Shown: positions 1-52,608 of the stretch, in pieces | How the letters are laid out: each line of letters starts with the position of its first letter | Position numbering within the stretch: the stretch's first letter is position 1 | NCBI GenBank assembly: GCA_003116975.1 | Contig: BGKB01000018.1 | Span: 780,716 to 844,715 of the forward strand | Reading direction: 5' to 3' | Source of the DNA: Aurantiochytrium sp. KH105 | Taxonomy: Eukaryota > Sar > Bigyra > Thraustochytrida > Thraustochytriidae | Length of the DNA: 64,000 nucleotides | Position numbers and translations under genes: made by a program | The notes under the pieces: generated by a model | Databases searched by the model: none | What the model was told of the DNA's origin: nothing | What the model saw: the letters and a program-made list of their open reading frames with translations, nothing else

Positions 1-880
1 CGCCAACCGTGACATCCACGCTGCTCGTGGCTACGTAACCAACGAACTGCATCCCTGAGAGACCAGGTTTTTACACCCGGACACGAGTTTTAACTCCCCC
101 GCGTTCCCCAATCAACGCGAATGGGCCTACTGACTGTGAGGTTAGAAATTTTGATAAAGGATGTCCGTGCTTCTCTTTTTTACGTAGTATACCTTCTCAC
201 GCCAATCAAGACACAGTCGCTTGTTCAGATACCAGCCAGCCACTCCGAACCGCCCGTCAAGGCGCAGCGCCCAGCACAGCACAGCACAGTACAGCACAGC
301 CCAGCCCTGCTGCCGCTCCGCTGCGGCTCCGCAGACCAAGCTATTCCCAGAGCTAACTAGAGCTGCCTGCGCAAAGAGCGCGCGCGCCACGGTCGCCGAC
401 CGGCACTGCACGGACGGGCCATTCGCCCCTTTCTTTATTGACTCACCCTTCACCCGGCTTCTTCCTGCTCCGCTCCCTCCTCCGTTCTCTGCTTCCGCGT
501 CCCTGCTCCTCGACGCCGCCGCGCCGCGGAGCCCGCACCGGCCACGGCCAGCCGCGCGCCGCTCGCCGTGGCCGCTGTCTCGGCTGTCTCGGCTGTCTCG
601 GTCTTCAAGTTGGCGTCTCGGCGTCTTGGCAGGCCGTCTTGGCGTCTGCACAAAGTTAGCTTGGCTTGGCTGGCCGGAGCGGCGGCCGGTGGCGGCTGCG
701 GGCGGCTGCGGCGCACACGCACAACGTGTCTATCCTTTCTCGCTGTCTGTCTCTGTCTGTCTGGCTGTTGCCACGTCTGTTTGTGTGAGACAGCCACCAG
801 TAGCGGATTGGCGGAGGAGACCGGGCAGGAGGCGTAGCTGCTGCTGCAGAAGCGGCAGGCCAGCGGGGCGAGCGAGCGTG

Positions 881-4050: not shown

Positions 4051-4920
4051 ATGCAGCTCCGCGAGGCGGCCGCCGCGATGCTCGCGGTGAGCGAGGGCGC
4101 AGGCGGCGCGGCGCAGACGCAGCCGCAGCGGCAGCGGCAGCTGAAGCGGCAGCGCGAGGAGAGCGGCGAGGAGCAGGAAAACATGATGATGCCGCTGGCG
4201 CGAGGCCGCCTTTTAGCAGGCGGCGGCGACAGGCGGCTCCACCACCTGCACAAGAAAGGCCGACGACGTGGCGTGACCTTTGCGGCGGACCCGAGGGTCG
4301 TGCGCTTCGAGCTCTCGTGCGAGGAGCGCAAGCTCAAGAAGGACGCGGTGCTGCGCATCCGCTTCCAGGCGCAGCTCCGGCGCAACGAGGCGCGCGAGGA
4401 GAGGGCCGCCGCCGAGGCCGAGGCGCTCATCCGCCGCCGCCAGGACCAGGAGCGCGAGCGGCAGCAGCAAGAGCAGGAGCAGGAGCAGGAGCAGGAAGAG
4501 GAAGAGGAAGGCCAGCAGCAGGCGCACTGCTTGTGCGGCGGCAACAGCGGCTGCGGCAACCGCTCAAACAGAACTATCCGCGGCGGCAAGTGCGGCGGCG
4601 GCGCCTGCAACAGCGGCAAAGTCCACCGGAAAGTGCGCGACGCGTGCCATCTGCGGGAGCGACCCGGTCTCGCGGGCGCGACGACTGCCGCGGCGGCGGC
4701 GGCGTCCGCGGCGGCGGCGGGCCCGGCCGCGCGGCTGGCCAAGTCCGTCGCCGGCGGCAGCGGCGCGCCCGGCGCGGCGGCGGCGGCGGCGGCCCTCGCG
4801 CAGCCGCCGCACGTGCCCACGCGGCGCCGCTCCATCCTGCCGGCGCACTGGACCCGCCGGCGTTTCCAACGTTTCCATCGGGACTTTCCGGTCTCCACCG
4901 TCGCTTCCTGCTCAGTGTGA
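4051..4920 (+). CDS. Hypothetical basic protein with PP1-docking-like motif
   Basis: 289-residue reading frame whose central part has strongly G/C third positions and non-repetitive composition, unlike the flanking low-complexity frames. Around residues 68-110 it reads KKGRRRGVTFAADPRVVRF followed by ELSCEERKLKKDAVLRIRF. R-G-V-T-F fits the degenerate RVxF motif that docks protein phosphatase 1, and the layout of an RVxF-like motif followed by a second V..F and S.EER is reminiscent of PPP1R15-type regulators. A charged helix and Gln/Glu-rich repeats follow (about 115-155), then Cys/Gly-rich and Ala-rich segments. No catalytic domain is seen. The C-terminal half is compositionally biased and could be misread, and the start is uncertain. 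The gene call is moderate and the PP1 link is weak inference. Confidence 0.5.
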   Translation: MQLREAAAAMLAVSEGAGGAAQTQPQRQRQLKRQREESGEEQENMMMPLARGRLLAGGGDRRLHHLHKKGRRRGVTFAADPRVVRFELSCEERKLKKDAVLRIRFQAQLRRNEAREERAAAEAEALIRRRQDQERERQQQEQEQEQEQEEEEEGQQQAHCLCGGNSGCGNRSNRTIRGGKCGGGACNSGKVHRKVRDACHLRERPGLAGATTAAAAAASAAAAGPAARLAKSVAGGSGAPGAAAAAAALAQPPHVPTRRRSILPAHWTRRRFQRFHRDFPVSTVASCSV

Positions 4921-35121: not shown

Positions 35122-38100
35122 CTAATTGCAGACTGCCGCAGGCTGAGAAAATCGGTAAAGGATATCGAAACCCTGAGCAGGCATGCAAGACTCGGCAAGA
35201 GTACAACCATTGTTGGCGGGCTGGTCGCACTGGCGGAAGCGAATCTTGTTTGTAAAGAGCTCCGGGTAGTCGGCGTACTTGACTGTGATAATGCCGTCGC
35301 ACGGCAAGTTTGTTGAAGGAACGAAAAAGGACTGCACCCAGTCCTCGGCGGACGTATCGTAGTGCTCTACATGAATTCCTTCTGTGCAAGTGTCGTCCGA
35401 AGTGGTGTACGTGGGGTTCGAGAGACAAGTGTTGATGGTGTTCTTCTCGCCAGTTCCGTAGCTCTCCACGTACGAGACAATGCCAAAGGTCTCCTCCCGG
35501 ATATCCGCGTAGCAGTTATCGATCCATCCAGCGACTGACATACCCGAGGGGCGGTTCGAGGAAATTGCCCTGCAGTAGCGTTTGGCCCAGCGTCTTCCAA
35601 TTACGTTGTAGTTGGTTCGGCCATCGACAATGTCATCGTAGCAGGCTTCCGGGGTGTCCTCATTCGTGTTTGCAGTCTGGCACCATTCCGTGATGGCATC
35701 AAGGATCTGAGCCGAGGTCGTGGCAGTGCCAACAAGTGCCTTGGCCATGGTGAGACCCTCACTCCACTGCTGCCAGGTGCATTCCGCGAAGACGCTCCCA
35801 TCAGACGTATTCGTCGGGGTGGAGAGCTGAAAGTCCACGACGCCCTTCGGGCAGTACCCAGTTGAGTCTTCACTTGTGGCGCGCTCCTCGTCGATGTCAA
35901 TGATGTGGTCAATGTTCATGCGGTAGCCAACGACTCCCTTTGCACCACCCTTTTGACCGATCATCTTGAGGCAGGTGATTTGAATGAAGATGCTTTCCTG
36001 GTATGTGAGCTTCCACGTGCGTTCGGCGCCACGGTCAGTGCTGCGCTGGTCGACGGCATCGTAGGAGACGTCTGTGAGAGAATCAGAAAGCTCATCGGAC
36101 CAGCCTGAGCCAGCGTCACCAAAGCACTCAGAGGCAACAAGCGAAACCGTGTCGCCGTCGACGGTAAGCCTGGTCTCGGTGACGACGGCACGCTCTCCGA
36201 GTACGGCGTTGATGGAAAACATGTTGTCAGCGGTTGTGTAGACTTCCATGACGGCTTCACCGGACAAAGGGTTGGCCTGGCAAGGCGAGCCCACAGCCCC
36301 AATATCACTTTGATCGGTCAGCATGCTGGCACGGGTCTCGTTGTAGACGCAATAATTGCCGTCGTGATCCTTTTCAGATTTACACGTGGCCAATTTGATC
36401 GGGCAAGTGGATTCATCACCTGGAATCTCACGACCATCACAAATGATCCATGCATCAATCGCAAGGTTATTACCCGTAGCGGTGAAGGGAGTCATCTCTG
36501 GATCGCCGTAGATGGAGCAGTCGCGGCAGCAGGAATAAGGCTCCTCATTGGGGTTCGCATAGGAGATGTTGATATCGAGGGTAACTCTGTTCTGTCTGTT
36601 CTTGAGCTTCCTGCAGTATGCTTTCTCATCATCGTTGTCCGCGTCACAGTAAGGCCGAACAGTCTCCTGCGTGCGACAGTAGCCCCACTCCGAAAGCTCG
36701 GGTAAGTCGTCTTCATCATCTGGTTCACAACAGGTTTCGCACGTGCCAATCTGTACAAAGTCCTCGGTGGATGACTGACAGACCTGCGGACTCTGGTTCT
36801 CCGCAAATTCTTCGCAATCATAGCAGGTCGGTTCCGGAGCTAGCGTGGGAGCAGGGGTGGGACATTCTTCAATTTGTCTGTATTCGATCTGCGCAGTAAA
36901 TCCGTTTGTTGGGAGGCAGTTGTTGCTCGTCGCGCATTCTGACTGAATCGATTCGCATTGTGCAAGACGGATGGGACGCACCATAAGGTTCGGAAAGACG
37001 GTTCCGTTGACCTTGGCGATGCCATCACAAGGGGGAAGCGTTGACGGAATGAAGAACTCATCCTCCCACGTGGAAGTGTCATCGTTGAACGACTGAACCT
37101 GCACACCAATCTCGCAAGTGTTGGACTTGCTTTCGTTGTACTCAGTAACATCGGCAATGCATTCGGTCGGTGTTTGTGTCGTTGCAGACGTGACCTCGAA
37201 AGAGGGACGATCCTTGACGTACTGGAACCAAGTGAAGTCTTCGATATCCTGCAAGCAGCGAAGGTACCCATCCTCGTCGTAGCCAGACCCGTCTCCGTTC
37301 ATGTTGTCGATCTGACACACAATTTGGGCCCAGCTGAAACCAGACTCCTCGCAGTTCTCTTTGATACGCTCCGCGCATTCCTCGTCGCTACCAATGGCCG
37401 GTGTAACACCAGAATAGTCGTTGTCCTCGCACCACTTGAGCACGTTTGCATCATAATTTTCTTCGACGCAAGTGGGATCGACAAGAGCCTTGCAGGCTTC
37501 GAGGCAGCCTCCAATCTCCATGCGCAGGCATTTGTCATCGTCCTCGATAGAAAGAGTGCCAGTTCCCTTTTCGTCTTCAGAAATGACACCCGTGACGCAA
37601 AAACCAGTGAACTCGTCATCGGGCGAATCTCCAGCAGTCGGGTACCGCAGCGTGACGTCGAGACGGGAGCGCTCGCCGACCGTGCGCTGGCAAAGAATAT
37701 CAGTGAAAACGCTGGCGCCCGTGTTTTGAACGGACCACATGACGCGCTGGGACGACTCTGTGGTCACAGTCCATGTGTCGGGAATGTTGGATGCGTCAGT
37801 GCTCCACACGCTGGCGGAGGTGTCGGCAAGGCAGGCGCTGGCCGTGAGCGAGAATGTCTCCGAGCCAACAGTGAGATCGACCTGTTCTGTGACGCCACGC
37901 TCCCCGAGAACAAGGTTCACCTCGAAGTCATCGCCAGAAAAGAATTCCATGCTGGGAAACTCAGTTCCATCGTACATTCGTGTTGACTGGCAAGGGCTTC
38001 CGTCTGTATCCCATCCCTCCCAGGGGTTATCAGTGCCTTGCCGAGTTCTCTTGACGAATTCACATTTATCACCCCAAGGGTCGAGCTGATTACTGCATCG

Positions 38101-38634
38101 CTGCGGTCCGTGTCTGCAGTTACTTCTCCGACGATCATCACAGACGATCCAATTCGCGCGTGTACCGTCAAAAGATGAGCATCGAGGATCTCCCCAGCAA
38201 AAACATTCACTGCAGCAGGTCTCTTCCGAGGTAACGGCCGAATAGTCAAACGCAAGCTCAATTTCAAGTTCACTCGATTCGGCAGTGCAGCCTGTTCCTT
38301 GCTCGAGGTCGCAGTAGGGAGTGCTGACGATCACTTGACGGCAGGTTTCATCAGTCTGCAAGGCACGAGAATTTAAAGTAGTATCCGAGGGCGCGAGGCC
38401 AAAAAGGCGCCGCGCATCGTCCTGACCGCCAACGAGGTTTGGACAGCACGTTTCGAGAGAGATCACTTCGGATGCAAGCGTCTCGGTGAGAGTGGGAGGC
38501 TCTTCTGTCGATACCTCGCACGCGCTGTTTGGAAATTCAATGTACGTAATGCTACTGGTACAGCCACTGCTTTGAGCAAGAGCTCTGGCTATTGTGGCCA
38601 CGAGCACAATGGCTACCGACGTCGCAAACCTCAT
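35122..38634 (-). CDS. Large secreted Cys-rich two-module protein, paralogue A
   Basis: 1170 residues from the ATG at 38634, chosen because it begins a signal peptide ([20 protein letters not shown]) shared with two neighbouring paralogues; an upstream ATG adds 30 unrelated residues. Two homologous modules follow: N-module to about 588, a short Pro-Thr linker (about 589-603), C-module to the end. Each module has, in order: a TCC/YC Cys cluster; CxxW/YGDP (Trp-Gly-Asp-Pro near 147, Gly-Asp-Pro at 710); W-I-x-C-D-x-R; GSPCQ; LGER.V...L.V....SL; a Cys-x-(R/K)-(T/M) strand; GFC/GYC.x.G; a helical Cys region with KALV; and a closing Cys-rich block (PCDGI, RxRQCxx, SCMPAQGF or NCLPTNGF). GDP...F.G faintly recalls von Willebrand type D modules. 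Probably extracellular or cell wall. Most divergent N-module of the three. Confidence 0.88.
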   Translation of the reverse strand: MRFATSVAIVLVATIARALAQSSGCTSSITYIEFPNSACEVSTEEPPTLTETLASEVISLETCCPNLVGGQDDARRLFGLAPSDTTLNSRALQTDETCRQVIVSTPYCDLEQGTGCTAESSELEIELAFDYSAVTSEETCCSECFCWGDPRCSSFDGTRANWIVCDDRRRSNCRHGPQRCSNQLDPWGDKCEFVKRTRQGTDNPWEGWDTDGSPCQSTRMYDGTEFPSMEFFSGDDFEVNLVLGERGVTEQVDLTVGSETFSLTASACLADTSASVWSTDASNIPDTWTVTTESSQRVMWSVQNTGASVFTDILCQRTVGERSRLDVTLRYPTAGDSPDDEFTGFCVTGVISEDEKGTGTLSIEDDDKCLRMEIGGCLEACKALVDPTCVEENYDANVLKWCEDNDYSGVTPAIGSDEECAERIKENCEESGFSWAQIVCQIDNMNGDGSGYDEDGYLRCLQDIEDFTWFQYVKDRPSFEVTSATTQTPTECIADVTEYNESKSNTCEIGVQVQSFNDDTSTWEDEFFIPSTLPPCDGIAKVNGTVFPNLMVRPIRLAQCESIQSECATSNNCLPTNGFTAQIEYRQIEECPTPAPTLAPEPTCYDCEEFAENQSPQVCQSSTEDFVQIGTCETCCEPDDEDDLPELSEWGYCRTQETVRPYCDADNDDEKAYCRKLKNRQNRVTLDINISYANPNEEPYSCCRDCSIYGDPEMTPFTATGNNLAIDAWIICDGREIPGDESTCPIKLATCKSEKDHDGNYCVYNETRASMLTDQSDIGAVGSPCQANPLSGEAVMEVYTTADNMFSINAVLGERAVVTETRLTVDGDTVSLVASECFGDAGSGWSDELSDSLTDVSYDAVDQRSTDRGAERTWKLTYQESIFIQITCLKMIGQKGGAKGVVGYRMNIDHIIDIDEERATSEDSTGYCPKGVVDFQLSTPTNTSDGSVFAECTWQQWSEGLTMAKALVGTATTSAQILDAITEWCQTANTNEDTPEACYDDIVDGRTNYNVIGRRWAKRYCRAISSNRPSGMSVAGWIDNCYADIREETFGIVSYVESYGTGEKNTINTCLSNPTYTTSDDTCTEGIHVEHYDTSAEDWVQSFFVPSTNLPCDGIITVKYADYPELFTNKIRFRQCDQPANNGCTLAESCMPAQGFDILYRFSQPAAVCN

Positions 38635-39714
38635 GGTAGGAATGCTTGGTCGGCTTCGCCGAAATGCTAAGGGAGTGCTTGTTCTCTCCAGGGCTAGGAG
38701 GGCAATGATTGGGTTTTGTTGCATAGCTTGTCGGAGTTTTTGTTGGATGTCCCAAGACTCGTCTGCTTGCGCCTTCTTTTGCCTTTTTCATGAGTCCATT
38801 TTGGAATGGTCCCTTGTACTTTCGTAGGTGCATGCAGAATGGACTGTCTTGGGCTGCTTCAGCCTACGTACGTACTCCGTCCGCGCGCTCTCGTTGGAAC
38901 ATTTCGTCCGCGCCTCGTTCGAATATGCGAGACAAGAGAGGGCTGGTCAATGTGCAAACCAATGACGAAGTAAAATGGATTCATGTCCCCATAGATGTCT
39001 AATAGAATGAATTCCCCACAGCCATGAGCAGGGCTTCATATTCCATCTAATTTCGACTTGGATTTTTTACCTTTGACTTGGGTCAGAAAAAGTTAGGCGT
39101 AACGGATTTCCAGGCACGAACTTGCGATAGCATTGCTCTACCGGCTGAGGCTGGCTGCTGCATGGAATGGACAGCCAGTGAGATGTAGAGAGCTCCATTT
39201 TTCCGCGCCGAAGAAATGCTGGTGTAGAATGACTCCAGGAAGTGTCGGAGTCATTGTGCATTCAGTCTCCCTCCATGTGAATGATTTATACATGGCTGGC
39301 GCAGGTTGGCGCAGGTTGTCAGCCTGGCTGGACGAATGGCTGGCTGGATAAAGTCCGCTGGCAGGATGATGGCGCTGGCAGGATGCATTTCTCTGGAAGG
39401 CTGACTGGACGGCTAGCTGGATTATGCAAGCTGGATGGACGGACGACTAGTTGGTTGGCACTGGCCGGATGGACCCGCGCCGCCCAGGCTGCAGCTTCGC
39501 GTCGCGCTGCGCCGCACCAAGGGCGTTTGCGAGGTTGAACCGCACGAAATCGATCAATCAGTTCGTATAAGGAAGGAAGGTAGGTAGGCTTCAGGACTCT
39601 TTTGGTTTGTTGGGCAGTCGATTGTGCGGGTCATGGCAGGACTAGAAGAAAAGGACGAAGGAGAAAAGAAAGGAAGAACGGGAAAAGAATCCTATTTTTG
39701 TTAGATTATAGCTT
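38635..39714. other. Intergenic region between paralogues A and B
   Basis: 1.1 kb; upstream of A and downstream of B. It holds a tRNA-like D-arm on the minus strand near 39090-39165 and CTGG/CTGGA-rich repeats at about 39290-39460. No protein gene is seen. Confidence 0.55.
39085..39165 (-). other. tRNA-like fragment with box A match and T-run
   Basis: On the minus strand the sequence CAGCCTCAGCCGGTAGAGCA matches a tRNA D-arm/RNA polymerase III box A almost perfectly. A GTTCG...CC stretch resembling box B follows too soon for an anticodon arm, and a T5 run lies about 30 bases further on. It cannot fold as a complete tRNA. It could be a decayed tRNA, a tRNA-derived SINE head or chance. Confidence 0.25.
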
Positions 39715-42700
39715 TTAGGCGCACACACTGGCGTCCTGCGAGAAGCGGTAGAAGAGCTCGTAACCCTGCGCAGGCATGCACGACTCCGAGATAGAGCAGC
39801 CATTACCAGCCTGCTGGTCACACTGGCGGAAACGAATAATGCTGGTGAAGAGCTCGGGATAGTCATCGTAGTTGACAGAGACGACACCGTCACAAGGCAG
39901 GCCAGTAGCAGGAATGAAAAAGGCCTGTTCCCATGTACCCTCGTCGTTAATGAATTCAACCTGGATACCCTCCTGGCAGACGTCGTCCGAAGTAGTGTAG
40001 GACGGGTTGTTCTCGCAGGTGTTTGTAGAATCCTTTGCTCCAGTGCCGTACATTTCCACGTAGTCAACGATACCGAAGGTCTCCTCCAGGATCTTACCAG
40101 AGCATTCACTGACCCATTGGCCCAGAGAGGTTCCTGATCCACGGTTGGAGCCAATGGCGCGGCAATAGCGCTTGGCCCAGCGCTTACCAATCTGATTGTA
40201 GTCTTGGTTGGAACGGTAGATGTCGCTCACGCAAGCGGATGGGGTATCGTATGTGGCGGCCGTCTGGCACCATTCCTCAATCGCCTCGGGAATCTGTGCC
40301 GTAGTCGTCGCAGTAGCGACGAGAGCCTTCGAAAGCGTGAGAGCGGCACTCCATTGCTGCCACGTGCACAAACCGAAAACGCTGGTGTTGGTGGTGTCAG
40401 TCTTGGTGGCCTGCTGGTAATTTACCTCACCTTCCGGGCAGTATCCAAACGACTCATCGCTCGTCGCACGCGACTCAACGGTATCGATAATGTGGTCGAT
40501 GTTCATGCGGTAGCCAACAATGCCATCCGCCCCGCCGTTCTGGCCGATCATCTTGAGGCAAGTAATCTGGATGTAGATGCTGTCGTCGTACACCATCTTC
40601 CAGGTTCGCTCAGCACCCCGCGATGAGGCGCGCTGATCTTCAGTGTCAAAGGAAATATCCGTGAAGACGTCGCTGATCTCACCATCCCAACCAGATCCAG
40701 CTTCGGTGAAGCAATCGTCCGAACTCAGCGTGTACATCGTGCTGCCAACAGTGATGTGCGTGGACTTGATGACTGCACGTTCGCCGAGGGTGACATTGAT
40801 GTTCATCTCATCGTTCGGAAGCGTGTAAATCTCCATGATGGCCGCCGAAGAAGCAGGGTTGACCTGGCACGGAGATCCGACAGCACCGATGTCGCTCTGA
40901 ACAGAGAGAAGATCAGCGCGGGTCTGGTTGTAGTAGCACTGTCTACCCTCGTGATCGACCTGCGTCTCACAAACGTCGGCCTCAATCGGGCAAGTGGTAC
41001 CATCCGTCCGGAGTTCGCGGCCGTCGCACAGAATCCAAGCATCAATCGCGAGGTTGTTGCCGATCGCCGTGAACGGAGTCATTTCCGGATCACCATAAAT
41101 GGCGCAGTCACGGCAGCAAGAAGCGACACCGCTGTCATCCTCATCCTCGTACACGATCTCGATCTCCAGGACGCCATTGTCTCCGAGCGCGTCTTCGCAA
41201 GTATCATATCCTTCGAGCTCCGACGCAATGCAGTACGGGCGGTCAGTCTCCTGCGAACGGCAGAAGCCCCATTCTGTAAGTGGCGGCGGCGTCCTTTCGT
41301 CCTCCGGTTCGCAGCAGGTGCTGCAGTTACTGAATTGCACGAAATCCTCGGTCGAAGACACGCACAGCTCCGGCGAGTTGTTCTCCTCCATCGTGCATTC
41401 GTAGCAGGTCCCGGGGCGTGGAACAGGAGCAAATGTGGGCTCTGGAGTTGTTGGTCCCGGCGTCGGTTCAGGCGTGGGCTCGGGCGTAGTTGGCTCAGGC
41501 GTGGGTTCAGGCGTAGTAGGCTCAGGCGTGGGCTCCGGTGTAGTGGGCTCGGGCGTGGGCTCCGGTGTAGTGGGCTCAGGCGTGGGCTCTGGAGTAGTGG
41601 GCCCCGGCGTCGGTTCAGGTGTGGGCTCCGGTGTAGTAGGCTCCGGGGTAGGCGCAGGCGTGGGTGCCGGGGTAGGCTCGGGCGTGGGCTCCGGGGTAGG
41701 CGCAGGCGTGGGTGCCGGGGTAGGCTCGGGCGTGGGCTCCGGAGTAGGCGCAGGCGTAGGTGCCGGGGTCGGCTCGGGCGTAGGCTCCGGAGTAGGCGCA
41801 GGCGTAGGTGCCGGGGTCGGCTCGGGCGTGGGCTCCGGGGTAGGCGCAGGCGTAGGTGCCGGGGTCGGCTCGGGCGTGGGCTCCGGGGTAGGCGCAGGAG
41901 TGGGTGCCGGGGTAGGCTCAGGAGTGGGCTCCGGGGTAGGCGCGGGTGTGGGTGAAGGTGTGGGCTCGGGTGTGGGCTCAGGAGTTGGCGCAGGCGTAGG
42001 TGCCGGGGTCGGCTCGGGCGTAGGCTCAGGAGTTGGCGCAGGCGTGGGTGCCGGGGTAGGCTCAGGAGTGGGCTCCGGGGTAGGCGCCGGGGTGGGCTCG
42101 GGCGTAGGCTCAGGAGTAGGCGCGTTCGTAGGCGAGGGCGTGGGGCACTCCGTGGTCGAGAATTCGATGGAAGCGGTGAAGCCGTTGACGGGCAAACAGT
42201 TGTTCTCGCTGGCACAGGTTGACTGGATGGATTCGCACTGTGCGAGACGGATAGGGCGCACCATTAGATCCGGGAAGTCGCTGCCGCTAATGGTGAGAAT
42301 GTCGTTGCAAGGAGGAAGCGAAGCAGGCACGAAAAATGCGGTCTCCCACAAAGCAGTGTCCTCGTTGTATGACTGGACCTTGACACCGACCTCGCAAGTG
42401 CTCGAGGCAGTCTCGTTGTACTCGGTCGCGTCAGCGATGCACTCCGTAGGCGTTTCGGCAGCCGAAGTTACCTCGTAAGACGGGCGGTCAGTCACGTACT
42501 GAAACCACGTAAAGTCAGCAATGTCCTCGAGGCACTGCATGTATCCATCCTCATCGTAGCCAGAGCCATCGCTGTTCATGTTGTCGATCTGGCACACGAT
42601 GTCAGCCCAGCTGTAGCCGGTCTCTGAGCAGTTGCTGAGAATGCGCTCCGAGCAGGCCGCGTCGCTCTCAATGGTCGGGGTGACGCCAGAGTAGTCGTTC

Positions 42701-43926
42701 TCTCCGCACCACTTGAGCACGTTGTCCTCAAGGTTCGAGTTCATGCAGGTGGCATCAACAAGGGCCTTGCAGGCCTCGAGGCAGCCGCCGATCTCTTCGC
42801 GGAGGCACTGGTCATCTTGGGCAAGCGTAAGCGTGCCCGTACCGGCAGAGGACTCGCTGATGATGCCGGTGCTGCAAAAGCCAGAGAAGTCACTCGACGA
42901 AGTCGTTGCGTCCCCAGCAGTTGGAATTTCCAGGCTGACATCAAGACGGGAGCGAGCATCCGAGGTGCGCTGGCAGAGAATGCTGGTAAGAACGCTGCCA
43001 GCGGTGTTCTGCACAGACCAGAGAACGCGATCCTCGGACTCGGTTGTCACTGACCACGTGTCGGGAAAGTTCGCTGCCGAGGTAGTCCAGGCGGTAGACG
43101 AGGTGTCATCAAGACAGCCAGAGGCAGCAAGAGAAAAGGTCTCCGAGCCAACATTCATGTTGACAGCTTCCGTGACACCACGCTCACCGAGAACGAGCTC
43201 GATGGTGTAGTCCTCACCGCTGAAGAACTCCATGGTCGGGTAGTTGGTTCCGTTCCAGATGCTCTTGGACTGGCAAGGGCTGCCGCTCTCTTCCCAGCTG
43301 TACCACCACGGTTGCGGGTCGTCAGAGTCAGGCTGGCGGGTCCGGCGCACGAACTCGCACTGCTCACCCCAGGGATCAGTCTGCTCGTGACAGAGCTTGG
43401 GGCGGTGAAGGCAGTCGCTTGCACGACGATCGTCGCAGATAATCCAGTTGGCGCGGACGCCGGCAAAAGAGGTACAGCGCGGGTCGCCCCAGCAAGTGCA
43501 CTCGAGGCAGCAAAGCTCGCTGGATTCGACAGACTCATACGAGAAAACGAGATTGATCTCGATCTCGGAGTTCTCGGCCGTGCAGCCCGTGTCAGCTTCG
43601 AGGTCGCACCAGGGCTCCGAGGTAGACATCGAGCGGCAGATATCATCCGTTTGCAGAGCGCGGGAAGTAGACACGGCCGAGTCCTCGAGACCGAGAAGGC
43701 GGCGCGCATCATCCTGGCCACCCACAAGGTTGGGGCAGCAGCTTTCAGTGGTAACCTCATCGGCTGTGCTCTGGACGTTCGAGAGGTAGGGCGAAGTGCT
43801 CAAGACATCGCAAGCTTGGTTTTCGAAAGAAAGTGCCTGGTCGGTGGCGGTGCAGCCATCGCTCTGGGCAAGAGCAGTTGCTACGTTGGCCACGAGCACA
43901 ATCGCGACCGAGGTCGCGAACTTCAT
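39715..43926 (-). CDS. Large secreted Cys-rich two-module protein, paralogue B (longest linker)
   Basis: 1403 residues. The ATG at 43926 starts a signal peptide ([20 protein letters not shown]). The N-module (to about 592) carries WGDP at 146-149; the C-module (from about 840) carries Gly-Asp-Pro at 945. Between them lies a ~250-residue Pro-Thr linker made of [16 protein letters not shown]-type 16-residue units that later change to TTPEPTPEP units. Both modules share the internal pattern described for paralogue A: CC clusters, W-I-x-C-D-x-R, GSPCQ, LGER.V, KALV and the closing Cys block with SCMPAQGY. The N-module is nearly the same as that of paralogue C, including long matching DNA runs. 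Pro-Thr linkers of this kind are typically extended and O-glycosylated in secreted proteins. The product is probably part of the cell surface or matrix; the partner is unknown. Confidence 0.9.
41412..42150 (-). repeat. Coding minisatellite, 48-bp unit (Pro-Thr linker of paralogue B)
   Basis: About 740 bases of tandem units inside the CDS. The main unit is 48 bp (16 residues, [16 protein letters not shown]) with synonymous and one-base variants. Shorter 24-30-bp TTPEPTPEP units occupy the part nearest the C-module. The same repeat is short in paralogue C (about 49265-49431) and almost absent in A. The antisense Gly-Val-Gly-Ser reading frame across it is an artefact. Confidence 0.92.
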
Positions 43927-46900
43927 GATGGGTAGCGGACGATCTCCTCGCTGCCCGTTCGTGTGGCGGCAAGAAACAGCGTCTATGGCCCGATCCTCGG
44001 GTCACAGGCGCGTAGCTAGTAACGCGTTTGGTCTTCGTGCGCTCCCCCGGGTGGTGGCGCGCAGCGACCGCGTTCCTGGTTTGATCGCGAGATGCGCGAA
44101 AATCTGAATGGCGCAAGTCTGTGTGCGGCTCCTTCCTTTAATTTTTTTTTTTCCGTCGAAACAAAAACTACCTTTGTCTTTTCTCTACACGGGATGACTG
44201 GCTTTCACGCGCCGTGATTGAGGGTGCCTTCTCTCTTTTCCTCCGGGTCCCTTCCTTCCCTCTCCCTCCTCAAGCTGCGATTCTCGACAGTCTAGCGCAG
44301 CTTGATAGAAGGTCGAAATTTCATCGCTGCAATCCATCGGCCGCGGTCTCTATGCTCGCCGTGCTAAGATGCTGCGCTCGCAAGGCGTTTGCACGTCCTG
44401 TGCGCTCGACAGCACGGGCCGCGTATTTTCTTGCCATCGCCGCAGCCGAACGCTGAGACTCATCAAGCAGTGCACGCGGCAGGCGTAAAAAAAAAAAACA
44501 AGATGGACGCCCGCACGAGCAGCCCACGTTCCGCGAGGCGGAATAAGGGACTCCTAGACCGTACCTACCTACTACTTTGGAAATCCTATTTATTTTCACG
44601 TGACGCATGCCTGCGCCTTCCGCGGCAAACTTCCAGCTCCTTGCCTGCCTTCCTCTCCCTTCAAACTTGCAGCCGGCCTGCGCTCTCCTCGCTCTGAGGC
44701 GCGAGGGATCGCAGCGATGCTGGACTTCCGCCATCCCGTCTTCCTCTCCTTTGTCAAGCCCGCAGCGTCAGCACGCGGCAAGGCCGCCCGCGGCGAGACG
44801 TCGGCCGCAGCGCGCCCACGCCACGCCAAGCCGGGCGGCGCGTGCAGCGCAGCCGGCAGCCGGCAGCCTCACCTCCGCTCCCGCGAGAAAAGTGGATTTC
44901 TGCGCCCTGGTCTGCTGCTCACGGCAGCGCTCCCCGCGCCTGATTCCGTCTCGTCTCGTCTCGTCTCCTCTCGTCCTCTGCCAAACCTGTGCCGGCCGCC
45001 GCCCGTCACGCGCATCACGGCCGGCGCCAGCGCGTATCTCCGCCGCACTTCCTGGAGTCATTCTCCTGTACAGCGCGTCGCCGCGGCCGCCGCAGGGAGA
45101 GAGAGGCTGAGGCAGGCAGGCAAGCAGGCAGAGAGCAAGCATCAAGGGCACCGCGGGCGGCAGCAGACGGCCCGCCCGCTCGCATGGCCGCGCCGTGCGG
45201 CCCCGGGCCGAACAGAGATCGGGCCGCGGCCCTGCGCTGCGCTGCGCAGGAGGAGCGGTTGTCGGAGGGGCCTGGGCGCGGGGAGGGAGGGAGAGCGACA
45301 GGCGAGGTGATCTCGCGTGAGTTCTGGAGAAAGGAGACGTCGCTTGTGCGTGCCAGTGCCATCCGTCTCGGCAGGAGCGCCACGGTGCGTCGAGCCGCGC
45401 CGTGATGAGTGGCCAGGCAGGCACTGTCAGATGCGTGCATCCTGCACCTGCAGCTGCAGCTCCCGGCGCCGTGCTGCGTTGATGAGGCGCTCACGCGAGA
45501 CAGTCTGCGGTAGGCAAGCAAGGAACTAAGCAAGAGAGCAAAGAAGCAAGCAAGGGGGGGGGATGCTCGCCGGAATGGCTTCGACGCCGTGGCGCGCCTA
45601 CGCACGCCCAGGCGCCCGCGCTGCGCCTGTCTGGGAGCCTGGCAGCGTGGCCTCGCATCTTTGACTTGTTTCATCTCGCCACGCCCCGCCTTGCCACGCC
45701 TCCAAACCCCGTGCGGCGCGGCACGGCTCGCTGCCCGCACATCGATCAGCCAGGCCTTGCGGCACGGGCCGCGTGCGAGAACTGAAAAAGAAGTGCAAAT
45801 AGTAAAGATGGAGGGCTGGGCGGCCATCGTGCTGGTAGCAGCCGTGCAGGCGCCCACGACAGCGCGAGGCAGCTTGCAAGCGCTTCATGCCGCCCAGCAA
45901 CTTGACGACGCACGCCAAGTATGCTGGTAAGTGCTGGTAAGCACGCGCGCACGCCCAAGCGGACAGAGCTCGGCACTGTGTCTCGAGCAACCATCAAAGG
46001 ACGGAAATTTGGCCATAGAGGCCGCCATTTTGAAGGAGGGGGGCGCGTGCAAATGGTGTGCGACCACTTGCGCATCCTTGGCGCGACCGACTGCGACCGA
46101 TCGGGAGGAGAACTCGAGGCGGAAGGAGCAATGGCGGCGAAAGCGATGGCCAAAGCGGTGGATTCTTTGATGTCGCCTCGAGCCTGGCCGGCTGCTTCTG
46201 TCAGATCCTGCAGTGCGATTTAGGATCACAGGCCAACGCACGCCGTCGTGCGTCGTGAGGGGATTGAGTGGGCCGGCAGCTTCGCTCCCGAAAGTCCAGG
46301 AAATCATTTTCAGACTGCTTGGAAGGCAGCCAAACCAGCACATTCGCACTGGAGATAAGGTACGCAGTCAAAATTGCTGCTGCTCACGCGCGAGTGATGC
46401 TGCTTATTTCGCTCGGCTGCGGCTCGAACGCCAGACGAGCAGCCAGAGACTTCTGGCCAGGAAACCGCTCCAGCAGCTCCCACAAGGATCAGCCGCTGGG
46501 GCAGGTGGAAGCTTGACGTGTCAGCCTGTCGGAGCGAGTGGCTCCGACGGTGGCGGATACTAAGAAATGGCCGACTCCAAAATCCTTCTCTGAGTTTGTC
46601 AGTCAGACTTACTATTAGTCAGTCAGGACAGACGCAGCAGGAACTGCGCATGACTGGTAGTCGGGAACAGCTAAAAAAGACCACGTCGCTGGTGGCTCGC
46701 GAGAGAAAACGCTCAAATTGTTTCGCGCGCGCGGGGGCTTCCTAAGCTGAAACAATAAGCTAGTCGGCCAGCAACTTAGCTTTGGCGACAAGTATTGGTA
46801 TGCGTCGCCAGAGAATTCATGGAGTCTACACACTGGCGCGCAGGACAGACAAGAAGCCACCAACCAAATGGAAGACCTACTTTCGATCGACTCGACCAAC

Positions 46901-47568
46901 CCTTGATTGTATGTTGAAGTTACTCTACATTAAAAAGATCGTCCACTACTATTCCTTATTTGCTGCCTCTGCCACTTTATCTTGTCTTGTGTTATTCAGA
47001 CGGTTTTGCTCTATCCTAAGCTCCAGGATGAGTGTCCTCGCCCAAATCGGCAATAGCGCTGCGAGAGATCGTACCAAGCCAAGGCATACTACTGATATTG
47101 CGCTGGACTTGGGCCATCGATCCTGCTGTTCAATCACTTTACGTTGGGAGAGCTTTTAGATTTCGAATGCGTCTTGCGTTGGGTTATGTAGAGCCGAGGC
47201 GCGATCAAGAAGACGCAACGAGCTCGCAAACGAAAGCTCAAGCATGACTTTGATTAGCGTCCAGGCCGCGCGACTTCCAAAGCCAAAGGCCATGCACGTG
47301 CGAAAGCTTCTCCGGATCGTTGCAGGCCAAGAATGCGAATGTTGTAAAGCTCTGTGACGTAGGAGCATTGACTTTCCACACTGGGTCGTTCGTAAAAGTC
47401 TGTAGAAAAGCGCGAGCTTCAGCAAGGCACCAATGAACACGGTCCTCGTACCACCATGCGCCCACTTCATTATGATGTTTTGCGCCTGGCAAGGAAGAGT
47501 ACTCAAGCCAGCGGAAAATGGCAGAAACAAGAGAAAAAGGATCAAATGCTGATGTTAAAATGTGATGT
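43927..47568. other. Intergenic region between paralogues B and C
   Basis: 3.6 kb. About 44600-46250 is very GC-rich with long but low-complexity open frames; about 46300-47550 is AT-richer. No supportable gene is seen. A minus-strand frame at about 47238-47570 has protein-like composition but no recognisable homology. The segment next to 43926 presumably holds the promoter of paralogue B. Confidence 0.5.
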
Positions 47569-50500
47569 CTATGGGCACGCGCCGCCATCCTGGAAGCGAT
47601 AGAAGATCTCGTAGCCTTGCGCGGGCATGCAAGACTCAGCAAGAGTGCAGCCGTTGTTGGCGACCTGATCACACTGGCGGAAGCGCATCCTGTTGACGAA
47701 GAGCTCCGGGTAGTCACGGTAAGAGACCGTGATGATACCGTCGCAGGGGAGGTTCGTCGCCGGGACAAAGAACGACTGGGTCCAGGCGCCGGCGTCCGAG
47801 TCGTAGTACTCGACCTGGATACCCTCCACACAGACGTCGTCCGAAACTTCGTAGGACGGGTTGTTCAGGCACGTGTTGGCAGAGTTCTTCTCACCGGTTC
47901 CGTAGTTCTCGACGTAAGAAACGATGCCGAAGGTCTCCTCCTGAATGTCAGTCGTGCACTGGTCGACCCATCGGCTCACCGACATGCCGGCGCCACGGTT
48001 AGATGAGATGGCCTTGCAATAACGCTTTGCCCAGGTCTCGCCAATCTTCTGATAGTTGCTGCGTCCCTTGACAATGTCATTGTAGCAGGCGTTAGCAGAG
48101 AGATCAGTGTTTGCGGTCTCGCACCACTCCTGGATCGCGTCCTTAATCTGGGCCGTCGTAGTCGCGGTGGCGACGAGAGCTTTGGCCAGGGTAAGACCCT
48201 CACTCCACTGCTGCCAGGTGCACTCAGCGAAGACGCTGCCGTCTTCGGTATCAGTCGGCGTAGAGTCCTGGTAGTCGACAGTGCCAGTGGGGCAGTAGCC
48301 GGTGGCAGCATCAGCTGTGGCGCGGTCTTCGTCGATGTCAATGATGTGGTCGATGTTCATGCGGTAACCCACAACACCAGCGGCACCACCGCTCTGGCCA
48401 ATCATCTTCAGGCATGTGAACTGGAAGTACATGCTGTCGTCGTAGACAAGCGACCAAGTCCGCTCAGCACCGCGAGAGGTGCTTCGCTGGTCAGAAGAGT
48501 CGTAAGTGATGTTCGTGAAGGCAGCAGATGGGTCATTGTTCCAGCCCGAACCAGCACTCTCAAAGCAGTCAGCGGCAGTGAGAGAGTAGGTCGTTCCGCC
48601 CGTGGTAAGACGCGTCTCGAGGATGACGGCACGTTCACCAAGTACAGCGCTGACAGAGATGGCATCATCACCCGTGGTGTAGACCTCCATGACAGCCTCG
48701 CCAGAGGCCGGATCAGCCTGGCATGGCGAGCCCACAGCACCAATGTCACTCTGGTCAGTGGCGAGCATCTCAGCACGGGTCTCGTTGTAGATGCAGTTGT
48801 TACCGGCGTGGTCAAGCTCACTAGTGCAGGTATCGCTATCGATAGGGCAGGTGGTGCCGTCGCCAGGAATCTCGCGACCATCGCAGATAATCCAGGCATC
48901 GATGGCGAGGTTGTTGCCAACAGCGGTAAACGAAGTCATCTCGGGATCACCATAAATGGCACAGTCGCGGCAGCACGATACAGGCTCCGCCGTCGGGCTT
49001 GCGTACGAAATGTTAATGTCGAGAGTACTGTCGTTGTTGAGGTCATCACAGATATCCGACTGGCTGCTGTCCGAAGTGTCGCAGTACGGGCGAGTGGTCT
49101 CCTGTGTGCGGCAGTAGCCCCACTCGGTGAGCTCCGGGGTCTCGTCATCCTCGGGTTCGCAGCAGGTATCACACGTGCCAATCTGGGCGTAGTCCTCGGT
49201 CGAAGACACACAGATCTCCGGAGCCTGGCCTTCCGGGTACTCGGCGCACGTGTAGCAACCCTCATCCGAGACATCAACAGTAGGGGCCTCCGTGGGCTCA
49301 GGCGTGGGTTCCGGAGTAGTAGGCCCCGGAGTAGGTTCAGGCGTGGGTTCCGGAGTAGTGGGCTCCGGGGTAGGCTCGGGCGTCGGCTCAGGTGTGGGCG
49401 AGGGCGTAGGGGCGGGTGTGGGGCAGGAGTCCGACGAGTACTGGACAGAAGCGGTGAAGCCGTTGGTGGGCAGGCAGCTGTTCGCGTTGGCGCACTCCGT
49501 CTGGATGGACTCGCACTGCGTGAGACGGACCGGACGCACCATCACGTTCGGGTAGTCGCTGCCGCTGACAGTGAGAATGTCGTTGCAGGGAGGAAGCGAA
49601 GCAGGCACGAAAAACTCATCCTCCCACGAAGCGGTGTCCTCGTTAAAAGACTGTACCTGGACACCGACCTCGCAAGTGCTCGAAGCAGACGTGTTGTAAT
49701 CGGACACATCAGAGATGCACTCCGTGGGCGTCTCGGAAGACGAGGTCACCTCGTAAGACGGACGGTCAGTCACGTACTGAAACCACGTAAAGTCAGCAAT
49801 GTCCTCGAGGCACTGCAGGTACCCATCCTCATCGTAGCCAGAGCCATCGCTGTTCATGTTGTCGATCTGGCACACGATGTCAGCCCAGCTGTAGCCGGTC
49901 TCCGAGCAGTTGCTGAGAATGCGCTCCGAGCAGGCCTCGTCGCTCTCAATGGTCGGGGTGACGCCAGAGTAGTCGCTCTCCTCGCACCACTTGAGCACGT
50001 TGTCCTCAAGGTTCGAGTTCACACAGGTGGCATCAACAAGGGCCTTGCAGGCCTCGAGGCAGCCGCCGATCTCTTCGCGGAGGCACTGGTCATCCTGGGC
50101 AAGCGAGAGCGTGCCCGTACCGGCAGAGGATTCGCTGATGGTACCGGTGCTGCAAAAGCCAGAGTAGTCACTCGAAGTAGTGGTCGCGTCTCCGGCAGTG
50201 GGGATGCTGAGGGTGACATCGAGACGCGAGCGAGCATCCGAGGTGCGCTGGCAGAGAACGTTGGCAAAAACGGTGGCACCAGTGTTCTGCACAGACCAGA
50301 GGACGCGATCCTCGGACTCGGTCGTCACTGTCCACGTGTCAGGGAAGTTAGAAGCCGAGTAGGTCCAGGCGCTAGCCGAGGTATCTTCAAGGCAGCTGGA
50401 GGCAGCGAGAGAAAAGGTCTCCGAGCCAACATTCATGTTGACAGTCTCCGTGACACCACGCTCACCGAGAACGAGCTCGATGGTGTAGTCCTCACCGCTG

Positions 50501-51204
50501 AAGAACTCCATGGTCGGGTAGTTGGTTCCGTTCCAGATGCTCTTGGACTGGCAGGGGCTGCCGCTCTCGTCCCAGCTGTACCACCACGGCTGAGAGGCAT
50601 TGCTGCCTGGCTGGCGGGTCCGGCGCACGAACTCGCATTGCTCACCCCAGGGATCAGTCTGCTCGTTACAGAGCTTGGGGCGGTGAAGGCAGTCGCTGGC
50701 GCGGCGATCGTCACAGATGATCCAGTTGGCACGGGCTCCAGAGAAAGAGGTGCAGCGCGGGTCGCCCCAGCAGGTGCATTCGCTGCAGCAAAGCTCGCTG
50801 GACTCGACGGTCTCATACGTGAAGGCGAGCGTAATCTCGACCTCGCTGGTCTCAGCCGAGCAACCCGTGTCGGCGTCGAGGTCGCAGTACGGCTCGGTAA
50901 TGGTTACAGAACGGCAGGTATCCTCAGACTGCAGGGCGCGCGAGGTGGACACAGCCGAGTCCTCGAGGCCGAGAAGACGGCGGGCATCAGACTGACTCGC
51001 CACGAGGTTGGGGCAGCAGGAGTCCAGGGTAACGGGGCCAAGGGCCGAGGCCGTGTTCGCGAGGTACGGCGAGGTGCTGAGGACTTCGCAGGCTTGGCTG
51101 TCAAAGCTCAGCTCCTCGTTGGCGCTGGTGCAGCCATCGCTCTGCGCAAGGGCAGTGGCGAGGTTAGCCACCAAGACAATGGCGACCGAGGACGCAAACT
51201 TCAT
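47569..51204 (-). CDS. Large secreted Cys-rich two-module protein, paralogue C
   Basis: 1211 residues from the ATG at 51204 (signal peptide [20 protein letters not shown]); an in-frame ATG five codons upstream is less likely. The N-module (to about 591) carries WGDP at 146-149. A Pro-Thr linker of about 55 residues (about 592-647) follows. The C-module carries Gly-Asp-Pro at 752 and ends with SCMPAQGY. The N-module is close to paralogue B, whereas the C-module is closer to paralogue A (for example GSVFAECTWQQWSEGLT and NNGCTLAESC), so the gene is a mosaic. Cys spacing in both modules matches the paralogues, suggesting conserved disulfides in an extracellular protein. It is first in the head-to-tail series C-B-A on the minus strand. 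Function unknown. Confidence 0.9.
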   Translation of the reverse strand: MKFASSVAIVLVANLATALAQSDGCTSANEELSFDSQACEVLSTSPYLANTASALGPVTLDSCCPNLVASQSDARRLLGLEDSAVSTSRALQSEDTCRSVTITEPYCDLDADTGCSAETSEVEITLAFTYETVESSELCCSECTCWGDPRCTSFSGARANWIICDDRRASDCLHRPKLCNEQTDPWGEQCEFVRRTRQPGSNASQPWWYSWDESGSPCQSKSIWNGTNYPTMEFFSGEDYTIELVLGERGVTETVNMNVGSETFSLAASSCLEDTSASAWTYSASNFPDTWTVTTESEDRVLWSVQNTGATVFANVLCQRTSDARSRLDVTLSIPTAGDATTTSSDYSGFCSTGTISESSAGTGTLSLAQDDQCLREEIGGCLEACKALVDATCVNSNLEDNVLKWCEESDYSGVTPTIESDEACSERILSNCSETGYSWADIVCQIDNMNSDGSGYDEDGYLQCLEDIADFTWFQYVTDRPSYEVTSSSETPTECISDVSDYNTSASSTCEVGVQVQSFNEDTASWEDEFFVPASLPPCNDILTVSGSDYPNVMVRPVRLTQCESIQTECANANSCLPTNGFTASVQYSSDSCPTPAPTPSPTPEPTPEPTPEPTTPEPTPEPTPGPTTPEPTPEPTEAPTVDVSDEGCYTCAEYPEGQAPEICVSSTEDYAQIGTCDTCCEPEDDETPELTEWGYCRTQETTRPYCDTSDSSQSDICDDLNNDSTLDINISYASPTAEPVSCCRDCAIYGDPEMTSFTAVGNNLAIDAWIICDGREIPGDGTTCPIDSDTCTSELDHAGNNCIYNETRAEMLATDQSDIGAVGSPCQADPASGEAVMEVYTTGDDAISVSAVLGERAVILETRLTTGGTTYSLTAADCFESAGSGWNNDPSAAFTNITYDSSDQRSTSRGAERTWSLVYDDSMYFQFTCLKMIGQSGGAAGVVGYRMNIDHIIDIDEDRATADAATGYCPTGTVDYQDSTPTDTEDGSVFAECTWQQWSEGLTLAKALVATATTTAQIKDAIQEWCETANTDLSANACYNDIVKGRSNYQKIGETWAKRYCKAISSNRGAGMSVSRWVDQCTTDIQEETFGIVSYVENYGTGEKNSANTCLNNPSYEVSDDVCVEGIQVEYYDSDAGAWTQSFFVPATNLPCDGIITVSYRDYPELFVNRMRFRQCDQVANNGCTLAESCMPAQGYEIFYRFQDGGACP
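49265..49431 (-). repeat. Short Pro-Thr coding repeat (linker of paralogue C)
   Basis: About 55 codons of [17 protein letters not shown] units joining the two modules; a shorter counterpart of the minisatellite at 41412-42150. Confidence 0.85.
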
Positions 51205-52608
51205 GATTTCGAGGTGCAAGAAGCACGGACTTGAAGCGTGGGGCGGGGGGTCTTCGCGCTTTGCACAGCCTCGAGCGCAGCGCGCAGGCTGGCGGGCTGG
51301 CGAAGGGTCGCGATTCTATTCTGCTTTGGTTGGATGAGTGCGCGATGATTTTGTCAGTCGTCCTGAGGCCGTCGGTGGTTGGGTCTTCCTCTTCCTCTTT
51401 TAAATTTTCTTCTTTCCTTTTTCCCTTCTCTCTTGCTATCCCTCCCTCTTCCTCCCCGCCCTTTCTCTATCTTTTTCTCTCCTTGATCTTTTCTTTTTCG
51501 CTCTTTCACTTGACTGGCTTCCGTGGCGGCGTCGCTGGCCTTGGGCCGCGCCGCTGCTTCCCGGCGATGAAGCGACCGCGCAGCCGACTCGAGACCGTCT
51601 TCGAAGCCGCAGGACTTGCGCGGTGCAGCACACGGCCGGCCCCCAAGCTCGCAGAGTCGCCGAGATAGTGATGGAGCTTGTGACCGCCGTCTACGCTGCG
51701 AGACCGGGATGGATGGATGGAGGGATGGACGAACGAAGAAATGAATGAATGAAAAAGAATGCGATCGAAGCTTTTTCTGCCTTTCACCTACCGCCAGTGC
51801 CCCGTGATTGGGATTTGGTTGACGCTCAACAGCGATGCGTTCGCGCCACGAGTCAAGATGGCTATCCATAGTAAAAGAATTGGCTCGAGCTAGGCCTTGC
51901 TAGTCGATATTCTAAGGCAAGACAAGGACCTGCCATGATCGATTTCTTTCAAACGTTCATCAATCATTCATTTTTTCATTCGCCTCTCCCCCTCTCTCTC
52001 GCCTGGGCGGGAAGAGCTCAGCCTCCTGCGCCTCGCGACACACGCGCAGCTTCCAACAAGATCGCGCCTAGAGGGCGCGACTGCGCGCGCGAGAGGGGGC
52101 GAGGGCGCCAGTGCGGGCTCCGAAGTGAGCCTCTGGCGCCCTGCCGCCGCCGTCTCCCTCTGGCAGGCTCGCGCACGCGCGCCGCCCCCTCTGGCGGCCC
52201 TCGCAGGCGCGTGCAGACTGCGCGTCGCGGCCGGGACCTCCGGATTGCCCAGTGGGTGCAGAGGTCAGTGCGGCTCCCCTCGCGGCGACTGGGCTCCCCC
52301 CGGCCCCGCGCCGCCCAGTCTCGCCGGCGCCTCTGGCCTGGAAATGACTCGCGGAGGTCCCGGAGTCATTCTCTCCGTATCGAGAGGGAGATATAGAGAG
52401 CTCTTTCCTGCCGCCAGTGGCCGGCTGCGTGCTCGCTTGCTTGCGCTGCTGGTTGCTGTTGCTTGCGTGCTTTCGTCTGCGCCGATTGTGTCTGGCTCCT
52501 CGGTCTCCGGCGTGGACCGTGCCGCGGTGCGCGGGCGGGCTCGGAGGCTCGATAAGTTGCGGGAGAGGGAGTGGAGGGCGTGCGCGAAAACCGGCTACAG
52601 CTGCTACA

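Follow-up and report, generated by a model that had tools for sequence, protein, structure and literature searches.

A family of putatively secreted two-module proteins with a predicted VWD-like fold in Aurantiochytrium sp. KH105

What are the three long, cysteine-rich genes that lie head to tail within a 64,000-nucleotide stretch of the thraustochytrid Aurantiochytrium sp. KH105 (assembly GCA_003116975.1, contig BGKB01000018.1, positions 780,716 to 844,715; hereafter the window), and what might their products do? An initial annotation, made from the DNA letters alone, described three giant secreted proteins, each an internal duplication, and proposed a lineage-specific extracellular matrix, scale or adhesion system. 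Our analysis confirmed and much enlarged the observation and partly supported its interpretation. With slightly better than even confidence, we read the products as secreted two-module proteins, similar to the D assemblies of VWF and mucins, whose role is that of an extracellular scaffold or adhesin. The reading starts from what was observed directly, namely the two-module architecture, the family size (a lower bound), an old internal duplication, conserved cysteines and the VWD-like fold of one confident model.

The three genes were found where the initial annotation had placed them, each as a single open frame (coordinates of genes A, B and C include the stop codon; m1 and m2 denote first and second modules):

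35122..38634, minus strand: gene A, 1170 amino acids; signal peptide, m1, Pro-Thr linker, m2; 68 Cys
36859..38568, minus strand: module A-m1
36823..36858, minus strand: short Pro-Thr linker of gene A, 12 residues
35125..36822, minus strand: module A-m2
39715..43926, minus strand: gene B, 1403 amino acids; signal peptide, m1, Pro-Thr-rich linker, m2; 68 Cys
42142..43860, minus strand: module B-m1
41404..42141, minus strand: Pro-Thr-rich linker of gene B, 246 residues
39718..41403, minus strand: module B-m2
47569..51204, minus strand: gene C, 1211 amino acids; signal peptide, m1, Pro-Thr-rich linker, m2; 68 Cys
49420..51138, minus strand: module C-m1
49255..49419, minus strand: Pro-Thr-rich linker of gene C, 55 residues
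47572..49254, minus strand: module C-m2, 561 residues, the module with the confident structure model

The signal peptides, previously called near-identical, are indeed alike, with the first 20 residues 75-90% identical between pairs, and beyond them no further hydrophobic segment of equal strength was seen in A, B or C. At 1170 to 1403 residues, large is a better word for the proteins than giant. A self-alignment supported the internal duplication: the halves of each protein matched by BLASTP at 23.6-27.2% identity over 526-547 residues (125-145 bits, E-values 5.7e-34 to 1.1e-40), against a maximum of 26.9 bits in 200 shuffles of C2 for the pair C1 and C2. As the halves were cut, 36 of the 68 cysteines fall in the first and 32 in the second. 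The motif order reported earlier (CC cluster, GDP, W-I-x-C-D-x-R, GSPCQ, LGER.V, KALV, closing Cys block) was recovered in six of six window modules. Across 39 family modules, 21 Cys columns, GDP, C-D-x-R, G-S-x-C and the E-R of GER are invariant; KALV is local to the window cluster.

The family is not limited to three genes. Searching the assembly (76 Mb, 367 contigs) with gene C gave 68 matching stretches and with a divergent relative 81, which, sorted by contig and position, represent at least 47 gene copies, some without a whole-frame reading. These were placed on contigs C18 (3), C11 (3), C47 (4), C33 (4), C224 (7, one truncated at the contig end), C110 (3), C53 (5 + 1), C42 (5), C146 (5), C87 (1), C30 (1), C179 (1), C21 (2) and C68 (2). 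Pairs of contigs hold near-identical copies, mostly at 96-99% protein identity, and are therefore read as the probable two haplotypes of about 24 loci. This number, also a lower bound, comprises clusters of 3 (the window), 4, 8 and 5 loci and four single-module genes. Gene B encodes 1403 residues in one haplotype and 1371 in the other, with linkers of 246 and 215 residues. Its second module is 88.6% identical between haplotypes (amino acids), whereas the other five window modules reach 97.7-98.6%. Taken together, its second module and linker (39718-42141, compared with C11) are far more divergent between the two haplotypes than is the remainder of the cluster.

Outside the window cluster, two-module proteins with a clear start contain 1112-1166 residues and linkers of 0-19 residues. 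Cysteines were counted in 26 of the 32 two-module frames read, those with a clear start (the other six, mostly edge-cut, were left out); both haplotypes are included, so the 26 are not independent. Nineteen proteins contain 68 Cys, two contain 69, one 65 and four 64, and by eye the two with 69 and the one with 65 each carry one Cys within the signal peptide, leaving mature proteins with 68 (21 proteins) or 64 (5 proteins). This even number argues for closed modules, although intermolecular disulfide exchange may still occur. The relative on C87 and C30 (L011, L012) combines one module and a Pro-Thr-rich stretch with a VWA domain (PF00092), matched at residues 709-910 of the C87 copy, the one scanned (E 2.6e-8, 34.7 bits, cut-off 23.8). 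Genes on C179 (one) and C21 (two; L056, L057, L036 in all) encode one module, Pro-Thr-rich stretches and further Cys-rich repeats, which look apple/PAN-like by eye and had no match in a Pfam scan. Their products also end, by eye, in a hydrophobic segment, a basic stop and a short tail, the latter rich in Asp and Tyr in both C21 genes.

Forty-six modules were placed in a tree: 44, out of a set of 67, came from C18, C47, C53, C42, C224, C87 and C179, and two came from C21. All 25 first or single modules fell to one side of a single branch and all 21 second modules to the other (support 100/95; 0 of 500 shuffles as low). C53 and C224 overlap partly as haplotypes, and the meeting of some long branches calls for caution. 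Single-module genes group with the first modules. Given this split, the tree places the internal duplication before the gene duplications.

The structural evidence comes from C-m2, whose model (561 residues; predicted local distance difference test score, pLDDT, 80.5; predicted template modelling score, pTM, 0.72) has a VWD beta-sandwich fold followed by helices at residues 341-451. The following parts were delimited, with the boundaries of the first two chosen from the model and alignment:

48265..48993, minus strand: VWD-like part of C-m2, module residues 88-330
47869..48252, minus strand: helical C8-like part of C-m2, module residues 335-462
48943..48951, minus strand: Gly-Asp-Pro codons of C-m2, residues 102-104, invariant in 39 of 39 modules

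Structural alignments of C-m2 to D assemblies cover the helices as well, e.g. residues 94..454 to VWF 384..640, with the C8-like part aligned only within the whole. VWD domains usually open with C-x3-G, and C98-x3-G102 of C-m2 fits this pattern. The alignment to FCGBP D10 (8qci_B) begins with model residue 104 (Pro) at chain residue 4081. In the FCGBP GDPH motif D4080 is the Asp and H4082 the His, as described for that protein (PMC10880436), and residue 4081 is therefore its Pro. The register is suggestive of a correspondence between the GDP of C-m2 and the GDPH of FCGBP in the model. The faint likeness to von Willebrand type D noted at the outset is supported for the predicted fold but not for the sequence; conversely, the statement that no described family was recognised holds for sequence profiles, which gave no match, but not for the fold. 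We file the family as VWD-C8-like rather than as a member of Pfam VWD or C8.

Several results weigh against this reading. Scanned against Pfam and NCBIfam, the full proteins A, B and C returned nothing relevant, and neither did window segments, 37 modules or 39 VWD parts when scanned against Pfam. VWD (PF00094) was not among the matches at E <= 10 for the three full proteins, 37 modules and 39 VWD parts, and C8 (PF08742) was absent for the 37 modules and, for the 39 C8-like parts, from the best 25 of 30 families. Four profiles searched against PDB sequences produced chance rows only. By these comparisons the family is not known by sequence. Genome-wide VWD and C8 profile searches were uninformative (no VWD matches, but 0 of 14 controls matched for either profile). 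C-m2 is also the sole module with a confident model, the C-m1 model, built from 6 sequences, being poor (pLDDT 44.7). Foldseek with the C-m2 model gave no match at E <= 1e-3, the MUC5AC rows had TM-scores of only 0.17-0.21 of the query, and the chains that matched, drawn from a small number of proteins, are not independent of one another. The FCGBP alignment may start at 4081 perhaps only because this is the first residue of the chain after cleavage. His does not follow GDP in any of 39 modules, where the next residue is L (12), E (7), F (5), D (4), R (3), N (3), K (2), Y (2) or I (1). A change of this His to Asn is reported to inhibit cleavage in FCGBP (PMC10880436); by this analogy the family is predicted to lack canonical GDPH self-cleavage, and no self-cutting is expected by that route. 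Finally, a long Pro-Thr linker between two modules occurs only in genes B and C and their haplotype copies, and Pro-Thr-rich stretches otherwise in some single-module relatives; given the short linkers of the other two-module proteins, the family as a whole is not characterised by a mucin-like linker.

On the favoured reading, each module would be a very divergent D-assembly-like unit, with a VWD-like beta-sandwich, then a C8-like helical part rich in Cys, and beta strands at both its N- and C-terminal ends. After removal of the signal peptide the protein would be locked by its own disulfides, and the Pro-Thr linker would hold the two modules close or space them, so that the pair could serve as a scaffold or adhesin outside the cell. 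Paralogues with a transmembrane segment would anchor this matrix, and the VWA paralogue would bind partners in it, whether in a cell coat or an adhesive or ectoplasmic-net surface. Secretion, disulfide pairing, a polymeric or adhesive function and the place of the proteins in the cell are what we infer. An extracellular matrix or adhesion role is plausible and fits the signal peptides, the conserved cysteines and the VWA-fused and membrane-anchored relatives; these features, with the known roles of VWD proteins, are why we hold a scaffold or adhesin to be most likely. More tentatively, and with odds clearly below even, the family could amount to a labyrinthulid mucin/VWF-like system of its own, with two-module scaffolds, a VWA partner and membrane-anchored receptors, whose module is too divergent for sequence methods and which possibly forms a net or coat matrix or an adhesive.

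The same fold need not imply a scaffold. A soluble secreted enzyme or ligand binder, as in the VWD-bearing luciferase of Cypridina, is an unlikely alternative; Pfam and NCBIfam revealed no enzyme family in A, B or C, and the membrane-anchored and VWA-fused relatives favour a surface or matrix. We consider least probable that the VWD likeness reflects a common fold or a prediction artefact and that the module is an unrelated Cys-rich fold. The absence of sequence support in the Pfam and PDB profile searches and the Foldseek E-values above 1e-3 speak for it, as does the identity of only 9-14% among aligned residues in the 22 best structural rows.

Somewhat less likely than a soluble agent, yet ahead of an artefact, is a role in cell-surface recognition or as a variable coat, in which duplication and gene conversion within tandem clusters would generate surfaces that differ between individuals or strains. 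About 24 loci lie mostly in tandem clusters, and B-m2 is unusually divergent between haplotypes, as given above. Moreover, the first modules of B and C are 82% identical (synonymous divergence, dS, 0.40) and the second modules 62% (dS 1.84), with fourfold-site differences of 36/139 and 74/118, respectively (Fisher p 3.8e-9); this contrast was not found for A-B (p 0.67) or A-C (p 0.69). The simplest reading looks to be gene conversion between B-m1 (42142-43860) and C-m1 (49420-51138), with the second modules not homogenised. However, conversion is common to many tandem families, and the non-synonymous divergence (dN) of B and C m1 lies well under dS (0.11 versus 0.40) while many cysteines are fixed, which indicates constrained change.

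VWD proteins are known for roles in mucus (PMC11933400), diatom adhesion (PMC7335047, PMC8027222) and glue (PMC4989455), as these sources describe them. Compared with VWF and mucin D assemblies (VWD-C8-TIL-E; MUC5AC, MUC2, VWF, FCGBP), the family shares a predicted VWD-like fold with, in the model, the sandwich preceding Cys-rich helices, Gly-Asp-Pro at the VWD motif, and secreted, repeated assemblies. It differs in lacking a profile match and the His of GDPH, in TIL and E not being identified, in its module of about 560 residues with extra N- and C-terminal beta strands, and in having a long Pro-Thr linker in some members only. The vWD/GDPH adhesive proteins of diatoms are likewise from stramenopiles, carry VWD-type domains, are thought to serve adhesion and motility, and in one diatom form a tandem-enriched family, as described (PMC7335047, PMC8027222). 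Unlike the present family, they are recognised as vWD/GDPH by annotation or BLAST; the comparison is by description. Spiggin, the nest glue of sticklebacks, is described as a tandem multigene family of a mucin-derived secreted adhesive (PMC4989455), but as a vertebrate MUC19 derivative it is an analogue of the evolutionary pattern only.

Closer relatives offer a further comparison. The 2025 proteome of Aurantiochytrium limacinum reports 18 ectoplasmic-net candidates, 8 of them putatively net-related and all candidates only (PMC12221091). Like the products of our family, they come from a labyrinthulid, are taken to be secreted or membrane proteins and lack ordinary homologues in sequence; by their descriptions none of the 18 is VWD-like, and 'von Willebrand' is absent from the main text of that paper. 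Two thraustochytrid genome papers, as far as their accounts go, treat secretomes mainly via carbohydrate-active enzymes (PMC6050695, PMC10101102). As possible builders of the labyrinthulid ectoplasmic net, some 24 putative secreted or surface loci with a mucin/VWF-like predicted fold would be concrete candidates. If the reading is true, a VWD-C8-type architecture would exist in a form missed by sequence searches.

Around the cluster, Pfam identified a myosin, a UBR-box/PRT6-type protein, a kelch protein, an ODAD1-type coiled coil, a TCP-1 chaperonin and a RING protein, so judged ordinary eukaryotic genes. A plus-strand open frame (48346-51234; 962 residues, 1075 codons from stop to stop) runs antisense to most of gene C, had no match in a Pfam scan and is probably a shadow of codon bias. 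Elsewhere in the assembly, matches to the polyunsaturated fatty acid synthase family PfaA were observed below the cut-off (best E 1.4e-278, 930 bits, cut-off 1010); 11 of 14 control genomes also matched, none above it. The matches are suggestive, though not proof, of a labyrinthulid as the source of the DNA. The PfaA-like pieces lie on separate contigs, C72/C155 and C290/C61, a split that is perhaps an assembly break in repeats.
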